32,644 nucleotides of DNA from Endomicrobiaceae bacterium. Its GTDB lineage: Bacteria > Elusimicrobiota > Endomicrobiia > Endomicrobiales > Endomicrobiaceae. Under the pieces are notes generated by a model, which was not told the origin of the DNA, searched no databases, and was given only the letters and a program-made list of their open reading frames with translations. This document shows positions 15,468 to 18,773 of the stretch, one piece after another (the stretch's first letter is position 1; each line of letters opens with the position of its first letter). The DNA lies in the NCBI GenBank assembly GCA_028690485.1, contig JAQVBD010000011.1:10616-43259 (forward strand). The letters are read 5' to 3'. Both the position numbers and the translations under genes were made by a program.

Positions 15468-15548
15468 AAAAGGATTAACGGCATTTTGCGGCTAAAAAAG
15501 GATTAAGAATATTTTTGTTATTCTTAATCCTGCCGTTAAGAAAAAAAA
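15464..15548. repeat. Nested inverted repeat with a 15-bp direct repeat after the porin gene
   Basis: CTAAAAAAGGATTAA occurs twice (15464-15478 and 15492-15506). The second copy starts a perfect 13-bp hairpin, 15499-15511 with 15519-15531, around a 7-nt loop. A 9-bp outer stem pairs TTAACGGCA (15475-15483) with TGCCGTTAA (15531-15539). Read on the + strand it is followed by an A-run, whereas on the - strand the hairpin is followed directly by six Ts, as in an intrinsic terminator. It probably limits transcription at this gene boundary, but its polarity is odd because no - strand genes are visible. Confidence 0.75.
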
Positions 15549-15569: not shown

Positions 15570-15731
15570 ATGAAAAAATTAATAATTTTAATAACACTAA
15601 CAGTATATTTTATCAATATAATAATCCCGCAGGGAGTAACTGCTGAAAATATAATAAACAGCGAAGTCTTTTCTGCAGACAGCAAAACATTGTGCACAAG
15701 TCTTCCTGTGTCAAGCGGTGTCATCTTTTAA
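15570..15731 (+). CDS. Signal-peptide ORF, probable 5' part of the interrupted downstream gene
   Basis: A 53-codon frame starting ATG at 15570 and ending TAA at 15729-15731. The product has a basic start and hydrophobic core (KKLIILITLTVYFINIIIP) with a likely cleavage site after GVTA, then a short tail ending LPVSSGVIF. It is in the same frame as the 1011-codon ORF that begins two codons after the TAA. The tail resembles the segment that, as I recall, precedes the conserved DLH motif in secreted Tiki/TraB-like proteins. It therefore looks like the cut-off start of that gene rather than an independent peptide. The ribosome site is weak. Confidence 0.6.
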   Translation: MKKLIILITLTVYFINIIIPQGVTAENIINSEVFSADSKTLCTSLPVSSGVIF

Positions 15732-15737
15732 TCTAAT

Positions 15738-18700
15738 TTGAAAAACGGAATCAAACCTGATTTAATCATTATTGAAGATTTGCACTCTAATGCCTATGTT
15801 CAAAAAAACATATTTAACATTATAGATTATTTCAGCAGAGAAATCGGAATAGGTTATATATTTACTGAAGGAGCTCCTGAAGGAGAAATAAATCTTGATT
15901 CTTTGCATTCTCTTACTCCTGAAAAAGTGAAAAATCAAGTTTTAGACAATATGCTGAATAAAGGTTTGTTGGGTGCTGCGGAATATTATGGAGCGGTAAA
16001 CAGAGATGCAAAACTGTACGGATTGGAATCGTGGTCTGTATATATGGGGAATATAGAAAGATACCAGAATATAAACAAAAAAGAGACTTCTTTACTGCAT
16101 ATAATATCTTCTGCTGAAATGAATTTAAATATCGATAAATTAAAAAATTACAATAAAGATATGTTTTTATATGAGGATGTATTTTACGGTAATTCCCGGA
16201 AAGATAAAAAACATTTTGAAAAAATAAATTATCTTACGGAAAAATACGGGATAAAAACAGATTCATATAAAAATATAAAAGCTTTTGCCTCTCTATCTGC
16301 GGACAAAAATAAAGAATATACCGTAGGGAATGATACAAGGTATTTTTCCGGTCTTTTAAGGAATAAGATTTCTTTCTATGAATACAAGAAACTTTTCAAT
16401 GAACAAAAAAATAAAAATTCCGAAGAAAGATTGATAATACTTTACGAAAAATCAAAATTTTTTTTAACATGTGAAGAGAACAAAAAGTATATATATATAC
16501 AAGAATTGAAGAAGAAGTATGAACTTATAAATGTTTTTGATTTAAAAGGATATATTGAAGAAACTAATACTGTAAAACAAATACTGTTTGATAAAATTTC
16601 TAAAGGAAAAGAAGCAAGAAATACAGGAATGATGAGTCTTTTTCTTGCATTGCTTAAAGATTATGTTAAGCTTAATATAATGTTTGAAGATTTAGAGTAT
16701 ATTCAAAACAATAAAGAGAAATTTAAAAGGATTCTATCTGGGAGTTCTTTACAGGATAAAAAAAATATTGCGGATATCATTGATAATAAAGAAATAGAAG
16801 AATACTATGATACAAATCTTAAAAGAAATAAGATTTTTGTTGATATTATAAAAAAGAAAAGAAGTGGGACAAAAACGGATGTGGCTGTTGTAGGAGGATT
16901 TCATCACGGTATAACAAAAATGCTTGAAGATGAAGGCATCAGCTATATTGTGATAATGCCTAAATCAGATAAAACGGATTTGCACAATTATAAAACGACT
17001 ATACTGGATATAACAGTTTCTTCGGATGCTCTTTCTGACGGATTATTGGTTATGGGTTTGTCAAAATATAAACAAAGAGAGTTTTTAACAATATGGATAC
17101 AAGAGTTAAGGAACAGCGGTTTTAAAGATTATGAAATAATAGAGATACTTAACAAATGGGCTAATTCTTATAAAAATTTTTTCGGAGCCAATGAAGAATC
17201 CGTAAGGCAAATACAGGGAAAAGAAGAGACTGAATCCGAATTTGTAAATGATGAACAGGAAAATATCAAAGAAGAGAACAATATATCAGAAACAGCAAAA
17301 GCAGATTCCTCAAATACTCAAACAGAAGAAATAGATTTGTCTGAAGTTGTAAAAGAAAGTAAAAAAATAACAGTTAAAAAACTTTTAATAAGTGCTAAAG
17401 TTGCCGTAAAATCATATTTGGCAAAATTTAAGAAACCGTTTGTTTACAGATATGAGAAAGACAGAGAAAATGCAGTCGATGAAAAAACGGTTAAGAAAAT
17501 GGAATCAAATATACGATATTTTCCTTTTATACAGCTTATGCTTGGCTTTGAACTTGCTTCATCTTTCTCAACAATATTCATGCAGTCAAGCGGATATGAA
17601 TTAAATTTAATCGCCGTAATATTTTCATTCCTTGCTCCTGCCAGTTTCGTTTTTTCGGGATTTTTTGGATTTTTGGGAGACAGAATTCCAAAGAGAACAA
17701 TGCTTATATTGTCGTTGCTTCTCCATACATTGGGAAGCGTTAGTTTTACTGTTATACAATTCTCTCCGGTTCTGTTTATTGCTTCTCAGATTTTGCCTGT
17801 AATAGGAATAGCCGGTCTTGATATAAGTCTCAGTCCATTTCTTTATAAATCTCTTGACAGACTGAAGAAGAAAGAATCTTTTAAGGAAATATATGGGCTG
17901 AATCTCGGTTTATTTTGGATTACTATGTCGTTGTCATCTCTTATAGGAGGAACTCTCGCATTTTTTGTCGGACAGCATATAGTTGTTATAATAGCCGCAA
18001 TGCTTGATGTTGCTGTTTTTGTCGGATCTTTATTCTTTACACATAAAGAAAGCGACGGTAAAGTTGAAAAAGAAGAAGTAAAAGAAGAAACTGGCTGTAA
18101 GAAAAATCGCATTTCTCAAATTTTCAGTCCTTTGAGAGCTCTTTTTACTGATAGAAAAACTTTTATGTCCGTTATTATAAATATGGTGGTAAACAATATA
18201 TTCTTTGTATCGTTAGCATTCTTTTTACAACCTTTATTTATATCAAGCGGATTAAGTGCCATATTTCTTGCGCCTATTTATTTTGCTGCAAATGTACTTC
18301 AGTCGATGGCGTCTCATTTTATAAGCAGATTCGGAATTATTGCGGAAAAGAAACTCTACAGAACATTATTCTTAAGCAGCGCTCTTGTAATGACAGCTCT
18401 TTTTGCTGTTACCGCTCATCCTGTATTTTTATTTGCCGTATATGTTTCAATGAATTTTTGGCAGGGAACAGCTTCTTTAACTGAAGTTTCGTCTGTTTAT
18501 GAAATTCTTGATGATAATATGAGGTCTAAATGGCTTGCATTTAAATCAATGGCAGGCACGGTTGTGGCAAGTTTTACACAAATAGCCATAAGCGGACTTC
18601 TTTCTTTAGGAATAACAGGAGATATGATTATTACGGTTGCCATTTCAGTTGCGGTATTTGCTTCGGTAGTAATACCTAAAATATTTGCAGAAAGACATAA

Positions 18701-18773
18701 GAAACATAAAGAAGTTTTTGAAGCAATAAATATTGATACCAGATATATAAATGCTATTTTAGCTTCCGCATAA
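15738..18773 (+). CDS. Tiki/TraB/ChaN-like domain fused to an MFS transporter, separated from its signal peptide by a stop codon
   Basis: A 1011-aa fusion. Residues about 1-480 look like the Tiki/TraB/ChaN superfamily: IIIEDLHSN (10-18), FTEGAPEGE (about 42-50), GAAEYYGAV, and a late VAVVGGFHHG (about 381) with paired histidines. Residues about 490-545 are a charged linker rich in Glu and Lys. Residues about 593-990 are a 12-helix MFS transporter with motif A GFLGDRIPKR (about 645) after helix 2 and a long charged loop between helices 6 and 7. The only available start is a TTG 6 nt after an in-frame TAA, without a ribosome site; the next Met is at residue 53. The open frame is otherwise intact. 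Substrate and activity are unknown; the ferrous iron neighbours suggest a metal or haem role, which is speculation. Confidence 0.7.
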   Translation: MKNGIKPDLIIIEDLHSNAYVQKNIFNIIDYFSREIGIGYIFTEGAPEGEINLDSLHSLTPEKVKNQVLDNMLNKGLLGAAEYYGAVNRDAKLYGLESWSVYMGNIERYQNINKKETSLLHIISSAEMNLNIDKLKNYNKDMFLYEDVFYGNSRKDKKHFEKINYLTEKYGIKTDSYKNIKAFASLSADKNKEYTVGNDTRYFSGLLRNKISFYEYKKLFNEQKNKNSEERLIILYEKSKFFLTCEENKKYIYIQELKKKYELINVFDLKGYIEETNTVKQILFDKISKGKEARNTGMMSLFLALLKDYVKLNIMFEDLEYIQNNKEKFKRILSGSSLQDKKNIADIIDNKEIEEYYDTNLKRNKIFVDIIKKKRSGTKTDVAVVGGFHHGITKMLEDEGISYIVIMPKSDKTDLHNYKTTILDITVSSDALSDGLLVMGLSKYKQREFLTIWIQELRNSGFKDYEIIEILNKWANSYKNFFGANEESVRQIQGKEETESEFVNDEQENIKEENNISETAKADSSNTQTEEIDLSEVVKESKKITVKKLLISAKVAVKSYLAKFKKPFVYRYEKDRENAVDEKTVKKMESNIRYFPFIQLMLGFELASSFSTIFMQSSGYELNLIAVIFSFLAPASFVFSGFFGFLGDRIPKRTMLILSLLLHTLGSVSFTVIQFSPVLFIASQILPVIGIAGLDISLSPFLYKSLDRLKKKESFKEIYGLNLGLFWITMSLSSLIGGTLAFFVGQHIVVIIAAMLDVAVFVGSLFFTHKESDGKVEKEEVKEETGCKKNRISQIFSPLRALFTDRKTFMSVIINMVVNNIFFVSLAFFLQPLFISSGLSAIFLAPIYFAANVLQSMASHFISRFGIIAEKKLYRTLFLSSALVMTALFAVTAHPVFLFAVYVSMNFWQGTASLTEVSSVYEILDDNMRSKWLAFKSMAGTVVASFTQIAISGLLSLGITGDMIITVAISVAVFASVVIPKIFAERHKKHKEVFEAINIDTRYINAILASA

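Follow-up and report, generated by a model that had tools for sequence, protein, structure and literature searches.

A predicted TIKI-type head domain in a modular family of long proteins from Endomicrobia and related bacteria, with an apparently interrupted member fused to an MFS transporter

Introduction

Proteins of the TIKI superfamily have an active site of two histidines and two glutamates, according to the accessible part of PMC6254334. The same part assigns this site to E3900, H3902, E3930 and H4030 in RRSP, while the accessible part of PMC7979712 gives E47, H50, E78 and H289 for EreC and the active-site residues H85 and E113 for BcR135. The distance from histidine to glutamate is 28 in all three proteins (H3902-E3930, H50-E78 and H85-E113; PMC6254334, PMC7979712), and the minor lobe of EreC consists of four helices (PMC7979712). 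Here we describe a domain with a site of this kind in an open reading frame (ORF) of an Endomicrobiaceae bacterium. The ORF lies in a stretch of 32,644 nucleotides, hereafter the window (NCBI GenBank assembly GCA_028690485.1, contig JAQVBD010000011.1, positions 10,616 to 43,259 of the forward strand), and its product joins this domain, hereafter the head, to a transporter of the major facilitator superfamily (MFS).

The head family resembles EreA/EreC and BcR135 in its predicted core fold with an inserted helical lobe and in the order acid-x(x)-His, Glu 28 residues after this His, and a late His. It differs from them in the lack of any sequence similarity that we could find, in an Asp at the place of the first Glu, in an insertion of ~260 residues and in a multi-domain, putatively exported context. 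RRSP of the MARTX toxins shares the TIKI core, acid-x-His, Glu at +28, the late His and a very long modular protein, but according to the accessible part of PMC6254334 it is one of several effectors that a toxin injects, whereas our domain is the invariant head of metabolic and transporter fusions. HopBA1 is a fold match whose 217-residue structure has no large helical insertion.

Very long frames with signal or transmembrane segments and enrichment in certain lineages are also known as the giant ORFs of Omnitrophota and Elusimicrobiota (accessible parts of PMC11573180 and PMC10066038). Huge proteins are enriched in Elusimicrobiota (PMC11573180) and linked to host-associated phyla (PMC11573180, PMC10066038). 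Omnitrophota giants are poorly conserved with few domains (PMC10066038), unlike the present family with its conserved head and tail. The fold and the giant ORFs are already known. For the head, the tail and the cargo logic we came across no earlier account in our searches of the literature on giant proteins of Endomicrobia and Elusimicrobia; the accessible part of PMC11257099, which names Praeruminimicrobium, does not contain 'giant', 'signal peptide' or 'secretion'. The head-tail family of long to giant proteins of Endomicrobia and related bacteria is apparently undescribed. We hold with moderate confidence that the window ORF is an interrupted member of this modular Elusimicrobiota family, whose exported TIKI-type head, probably a hydrolase or peptidase, is partnered here with an inner-membrane MFS transporter.

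The head-MFS gene and its interruption

The ORF occupies 15738..18773 on the + strand and codes for 1011 aa from TTG, its first start codon. Its frame extends upstream to an ATG at 15570, which opens the segment MKKLIILITLTVYFINIIIPQGVTA... and is separated from the ORF by an in-frame TAA at 15729-15731; counted from this ATG the gene has 1,067 codons. Two intact relatives serve for comparison. The orthologue of the sister species Ca. Praeruminimicrobium purgamenti (L022, JAHDQW010000001.1) is one open frame of 1070 aa with 88% amino-acid identity, and a second copy in the same genome (contig C104) is an open frame of 1068 aa with 44-48% identity to the window copy. The features of the gene are as follows.

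15570..15728, + strand: signal-peptide segment (MKKLIILITLTVYFINIIIPQGVTA...IF), where the frame truly begins, today a fragment of 53 codons; residue-by-residue alignment with the intact C104 and L022 copies
15729..15731, + strand: in-frame TAA interrupting the gene; a sense codon stands there in L022 and C104, and the genome search also counts 1 TAA inside the match
15738..17030, + strand: predicted TIKI/EreA/ChaN-fold domain, ORF residues 1-431, with the ~260-residue helical insertion; predicted models (pLDDT 82, and 91.7 for a relative), structural matches, alignment of 56 members
15777..15785, + strand: Asp14-Leu15-His16, first part of the catalytic-type site (acid-x-His)
15867..15869, + strand: Glu44, 28 residues past His16
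16902..16904, + strand: His389 of the GGFH motif
17031..17517, + strand: charged linker from domain to transporter; no transmembrane segment found
17520..18683, + strand: 12-helix MFS transporter domain; PF07690 match, hydropathy and loop charges, low dN/dS
18753..18770, + strand: C-terminal tail AILASA (hydrophobic-Leu-x-[Ala/Ser/Cys]-Ala-COOH); family-wide tail pattern

An earlier note on this DNA had pointed to a fusion of a domain, ~430 residues long by our count, to a 12-helix MFS transporter, and this fusion is real since it recurs in L022 and C104. The elements quoted in that note are present (IIIEDLHSN at residues 10-18, FTEGAPEGE at 42-50, VVGGFHHG at 384-391), as is the cut-off signal segment in the frame from ATG 15570, expected to send the first domain out of the cytoplasm. 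Pfam MFS_1 (PF07690) matches ORF residues 602-866 with E 2.4e-16 and 60 bits, above the cut-off of 33.4. The hydropathy scan gives 10 strong helices and two weaker ones, 12 by our reading, and loops rich in lysine and arginine fall on the cytoplasmic side, so that the MFS N-terminus is predicted to be cytoplasmic, as the note had proposed.

The ratio of non-synonymous to synonymous substitution rates (dN/dS) between the window copy and L022 is 0.21 overall, 0.25 for the domain, 0.14 for the MFS part and 0.73 for the linker (160 codons, ORF residues 431-590), so that both halves were under purifying selection for most of the divergence from L022. These values are blind to a recent break and say nothing on whether the window copy works today. 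Its recurrence in L022 and in the C104 copy, together with the ratio of 0.21, makes the head-MFS arrangement more than chance.

Since the L022 and C104 frames are open with a sense codon at the place of the TAA, and the TTG lacks a ribosome-binding-like sequence, we take a nonsense mutation or an assembly error to have broken the frame of the window copy, which may be inactive. No Shine-Dalgarno-like sequence is seen by eye before TTG 15738 and both intact relatives begin at the upstream ATG, and for these reasons the TTG is not a credible start. It is probably an artefact of the mutation or assembly error, and the coordinates of the finding should begin at 15570, not at 15738. Shine-Dalgarno-like sequences precede 16 of the 24 start sites checked in the window, and ATG 15570 is among those without one. 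A functional cytoplasmic protein made from the TTG, which would be the new sensor-transporter offered in the earlier note, could account for a frame that stays open after the stop and that has evolved under purifying selection since it diverged from L022. We consider it very unlikely in view of the start codon, of the inability of dN/dS to see a recent break, and of stand-alone heads that have a signal peptide of their own (see below).

Fold and conserved site of the head domain

For the window domain, a model of 464 aa built from 56 sequences has a predicted local distance difference test score (pLDDT) of 82 and a predicted template modelling score (pTM) of 0.77. It has strands at 9-14, 38-47, 92-97, 380-386 and 403-408, with the helical insertion between them, and fits the parallel β-sheet core with helices at its flanks that marks the TIKI superfamily. 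A second model, of the L045 member, reaches pLDDT 91.7 and pTM 0.85; the two share most alignment rows and are not fully independent. In VIA structural comparison the top rows for the window domain include EreC (Z 9.0, root mean square deviation 3.3, 142 residues aligned), ChaN (8.9, 5.7, 181), HopBA1 (8.4, 3.9, 144) and BcR135 (8.1, 3.7, 145). These matches span both halves of the α/β core, and the interleaved TTYH rows cover the helical part only. The six best rows for the L045 model are EreC twice, ChaN, HopBA1 and BcR135 twice (Z 8.6 to 7.2, with ChaN at 8.3), after which the next row falls to Z 6.0 on the helical insertion only; HopBA1 scores 8.0-8.4 over both models. Foldseek places EreC first (E 0.25) and HopBA1 fourth (probability 0.66) for the L045 model. 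Row 9 of its VIA comparison is 6a7h ('Bacterial protein toxins'), whose residue range falls inside that of VvRRSP in the accessible part of PMC6254334 and which we take to be RRSP. The same families lead both match lists, and with the site pattern given below they bear out, on predicted models, the TIKI/ChaN-like fold guessed in the earlier note: the head probably has a TIKI-superfamily fold of the EreA/ChaN/TraB-like kind.

Family searches give little beside this. Pfam, NCBIfam and phmmer/hmmsearch against PDB return nothing meaningful for the head. Among the families listed, DUF1722 matches weakly in 13/56 members (best E 8.7e-6), and CCDC50_N is also weak; those weak Pfam matches that were placed on the protein fall on the helical insertion. 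TraB/GumN and Erythro_esteras are not among the best 25 of 107 Pfam families for the 56 members.

Asp14, His16, Glu44 and His389 are kept in 56/56 aligned members, an invariance that is partly built in for Asp14 and His16, since the members were picked from loci found by a pattern over the DLH stretch, but not for Glu44 and His389. The likeness to the superfamily site is one of sequence position and spacing. The distance from His16 to Glu44 is the published 28 in 51/56 members, 30 in 3 and 27 in 2. The insertion measures 246-278 residues in the 56 members and is mostly helical.

The presence of ChaN among the best structural matches leads to another view, in which the domain is akin to ChaN, binds haem or a metal and passes this ligand on to the MFS transporter. 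This would agree with the feoB and OprB porin genes that precede the gene, from which the earlier note had drawn a metal, haem or peptide role, and 2/56 members have weak PF04187 scores (E<=10; best E 0.0012), below the gathering cut-off. The metal or haem part of that proposal is not supported by the sequence tests. There is no PF04187 match in the genome of the window (G000) at E<=0.001, and hhalign with true ChaN gives 0.1% probability, from only 3 close sequences. True ChaN haem-binding lipoprotein genes (L152, L153 and L154; PF04187 E ~1e-52) occur separately from the head family in the same bacterial family, in 3/41 relatives. Other copies of the head lie far from feo, and 9/41 genomes have one next to pgi. 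A ChaN-like carrier is thus improbable. Between the OprB gene and the head-MFS gene an inverted repeat (ggattaagaat / attcttaatcc, window 15500-15530) is seen by eye, possibly a terminator.

Signal segment, head-MFS partnership and topology

A hydrophobic stretch precedes the head in 76 of the 77 members with a closed 5' end, against 235/1480 control windows of cargo. The ten residues before it hold 202 lysines and arginines versus 21 aspartates and glutamates, and a signal-peptidase-like site is found in 73/76.

A close relative of the MFS part (E<=1e-12) occurs in 10/41 genomes, mostly in head-MFS fusions, so that the same domain order, which the earlier note suggested looking for, is found in other Elusimicrobiota. 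Complete fused frames of 1025-1278 aa (L164, L165, L166, L167, L168, L169, L171, L176) each carry signal segment, GGFH motif, MFS and tail; three more fused forms are cut by contig ends (L170, L172, L177). Three frames of 600, 639 and 673 aa (L173, L174, L175) have signal segment, MFS and tail without head. In five genomes, at the loci L184 (which holds L175), L188 (which holds L174), L185, L186 and L187, the head is encoded alone as a protein of 498-503 aa that has a signal peptide ending in IYA or CYS. Its gene starts within about ten bases after the gene for signal segment, MFS and tail, as judged by its first ATG; in L186 this MFS gene runs off the stretch and its start is not visible. Head and MFS are kept together in fused and adjacent-gene forms, which argues for joint work. 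A methyltransferase-like gene lies upstream in three of the split loci, and a short conserved ORF downstream in four.

The topology conflict noticed earlier is real: no extra transmembrane helix that would resolve it is found before the MFS part. The earlier note had offered, as one of two possibilities, that two once-separate proteins were joined and that the stop did away with their conflict. The clash stands with an open frame in the sister species, in the second copy of the same genome and in other genera. The split forms keep it as well: there too the MFS half opens with a signal segment, while its loops point to an N-terminus in the cytoplasm. Since the clash persists even between modules encoded by two adjacent genes, the stop did not arise as a solution to it.

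An uncleaved inverted anchor, with the N-terminus outside and head, ATP-using cargo and MFS N-terminus all in the cytoplasm, would resolve both the MFS polarity and the ATP-dependent cargo (see below) with one assumption. The N-flank rich in lysine and arginine and the signal-peptidase-like sites predict the opposite orientation, and the stand-alone head has an ordinary-looking signal peptide, so that such an anchor is unlikely. Two further solutions were considered. An internal start at a conserved Met before the MFS part is not favoured: the Met is present in the 9/9 sequences (of 13) that have the flanking motif, and no Shine-Dalgarno sequence is seen by eye in the nine stretches upstream of it. 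A second helix that always returns the cargo to the cytoplasm is not a general rule, as a helix or hairpin lies within 500 residues of the domain in some long members and none does in others.

Distribution of the family

The family apparently combines a signal segment, the TIKI-superfamily head, interchangeable cargo and a short hLx[ASC]A tail, and it is multi-copy in Elusimicrobiota. The window's own genome has the head at no fewer than 12 separate sites (15 matches). The head also occurs in 24/41 relatives searched, with up to 25 matches per genome, and in 58/247 Elusimicrobiota genomes, ten of which lie outside the class with best E-values of 1e-32 to 1e-59. The window gene is below the >5000 aa of huge proteins, and in relatives that share the head, open frames are up to 12,656 aa long. 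A contig scan confirmed 174 relatives, of which 80 loci were kept for analysis. The titles of 79/80 name Elusimicrobia, Endomicrobia or their genera; L096 (CAJOPQ010000152.1) comes from a rumen bin labelled Clostridia and is probably mis-binned Endomicrobia. Many copies lie at contig ends (in the window's own genome L012 at the end of C72, L019 at the start of C79, and L013, L015 and L016 at the ends of C77, C66 and C69). Copy numbers are therefore minimum values, because the family repeats probably break assembly.

In their length, their modular build, their export and their TIKI-like domain, all in part predicted, these proteins recall the MARTX toxins, which carry a TIKI endopeptidase among several domains, and the link of huge proteins to host-associated phyla (accessible parts of PMC11573180 and PMC10066038) would also suit effectors directed at a host or prey. 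Two observations make effectors hard to credit. In genus g8, which has the smallest genomes and is probably Endomicrobiellum, a genus of flagellate endosymbionts, to judge from genome size and PMC11257099, only 11/41 genomes are positive, two of them (G089, G172) with multi-stop relics only, compared with 11/11 in genus g10; g8 thus appears to have mostly lost the head family. Most of the cargo that could be named belongs to metabolism and not to toxins, and the head is the constant part and not a variable effector.

Cargo and C-terminal tail

Cargo in the window's own genome includes MFS (window and C104), a calcineurin-like phosphoesterase (C81) and a cytidine-deaminase-like domain (C67); no cargo was recognised in the C7 and C11 members. 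The C97 frame (L021:6406-19743), 4446 aa and open to the contig end, has signal segment, head, adenylate kinase, two phosphoglucomutases, phosphoglycerate kinase (PGK) and glucose-6-phosphate isomerase (PGI). The two phosphoglucomutase copies are identical over their first 2151 bases, which points either to a duplication of very recent date or to an artefact of assembly. This frame closely follows a normal pgi gene, and a normal pgk is also present in the genome; the giant PGK copy carries the signature motifs.

Cargo was named in 36 of the 80 loci kept, in two sets for which the best 25 of 30 and the best 25 of 32 families are considered. Among the matches listed for 21 sequences are phosphoesterase (3/21), pyruvate phosphate dikinase (PPDK, 2/21) and phosphoglucomutase (2/21), then PGI, glycogen debranching enzyme, 4-alpha-glucanotransferase, phosphorylase, UDPGP, SecA DEAD domain and CofD (1/21 each). 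Those listed for the other 15 are starch synthase (2/15), GH94 and protein kinase (1/15 each), TPR and others. A second PGI in a frame of >890 aa accompanies the normal one in 9/41 genomes, and equal frame length and position place head and PGI in one frame in G000, G010 and G019. A head gene follows the normal pgi within ~2 kb downstream on the same strand in 9/41 genomes (G000, G001, G002, G004, G010, G013, G015, G019, G020). WEE..FR motifs are seen in the cargo after the head in L072, L074, L080, L081, L082, L085 and L098; we take them to recall CPBP intramembrane proteases.

The tail [LMI]x[ASCG][ASG]-COOH is found in 39/45 complete members against 3/339 other ORFs of 200-900 aa from the same loci, a contrast obtained with a pattern chosen after the first tails were seen and on 45 tails that are not independent, as they include a few orthologous pairs, 5'-cut members and three headless MFS members. 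Leu is at -4 in 40/45 and Ala at -1 in 35/45; the six exceptions to the pattern are L023, L026, L027, L032, L043 and L179. An ssrA-like degron is one possible reading of the tail. The ssrA tag has Leu at -3, and the conserved Leu is here at -4; no transfer-messenger RNA exceeds the Rfam cut-off in the genome, in a search that also matches archaeal controls and whose weak rows are uninformative.

There are three ways out for the ATP-using cargo: the inverted anchor with all parts cytoplasmic, delivery into another cell, and cutting of the chain. Delivery is less likely because genus g8, with the smallest genomes, mostly lost the family. Cutting would make the long members polyproteins. Interchangeable cargo (transporters, glycolytic and glycogen enzymes, phosphoesterases, a SecA-like piece) would lie between a peptidase head of TIKI type and a short tail that serves for recognition at the C-terminus, and cleavage of the chain would yield proteins that work on their own. 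This would explain modules of incompatible topology and internal signal peptides in one frame. Segments that resemble signal peptides or lipoboxes are seen by eye in mid-frame of L076, L090, L095 and L099; they fit the cutting idea and prove nothing. We regard the polyprotein as doubtful, though worth keeping in mind.

Discussion

The likely role of the head is that of a hydrolase or peptidase that works on the outer side of the cytoplasmic membrane. It would be exported through Sec in the intact relatives. Its acid-x-His, Glu and His would activate water, by analogy with erythromycin esterases and TIKI endopeptidases, and at the outer face the domain could process a substrate for the MFS transporter, or present one to it; this substrate may be a peptide, an ester or a glycoconjugate.

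Several points weigh against an exported enzyme of TIKI type. Foldseek gives no significant match for either model (best E 0.22 and 0.25), and Z values of 8-9, weak taken alone, are close to what the tool's own note gives as attainable for unrelated models. The first Glu of the superfamily is replaced by an invariant Asp. The signal segments, which fit Sec type-I, were judged by hydropathy, charge and small-residue pattern and not by SignalP. The MFS polarity puts the linker in the cytoplasm, in conflict with export of the head, and hydropathy reveals no helix in the linker of the window protein or its relatives that would return the chain. PGK, adenylate kinase and PPDK among the cargo need ATP, which the periplasm lacks.

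Counts of giant proteins exist for Elusimicrobiota and Omnitrophota, but explanations hardly do. A constant head with a discernible active-site pattern, a constant tail and cargo that includes whole glycolytic enzymes provide a testable handle on the function of a large share of them. The small MFS members, which exist fused and as adjacent genes, offer a tractable model for the giants. Should cells truly make chains of clashing topology, these would be a test of how bacteria handle such proteins.

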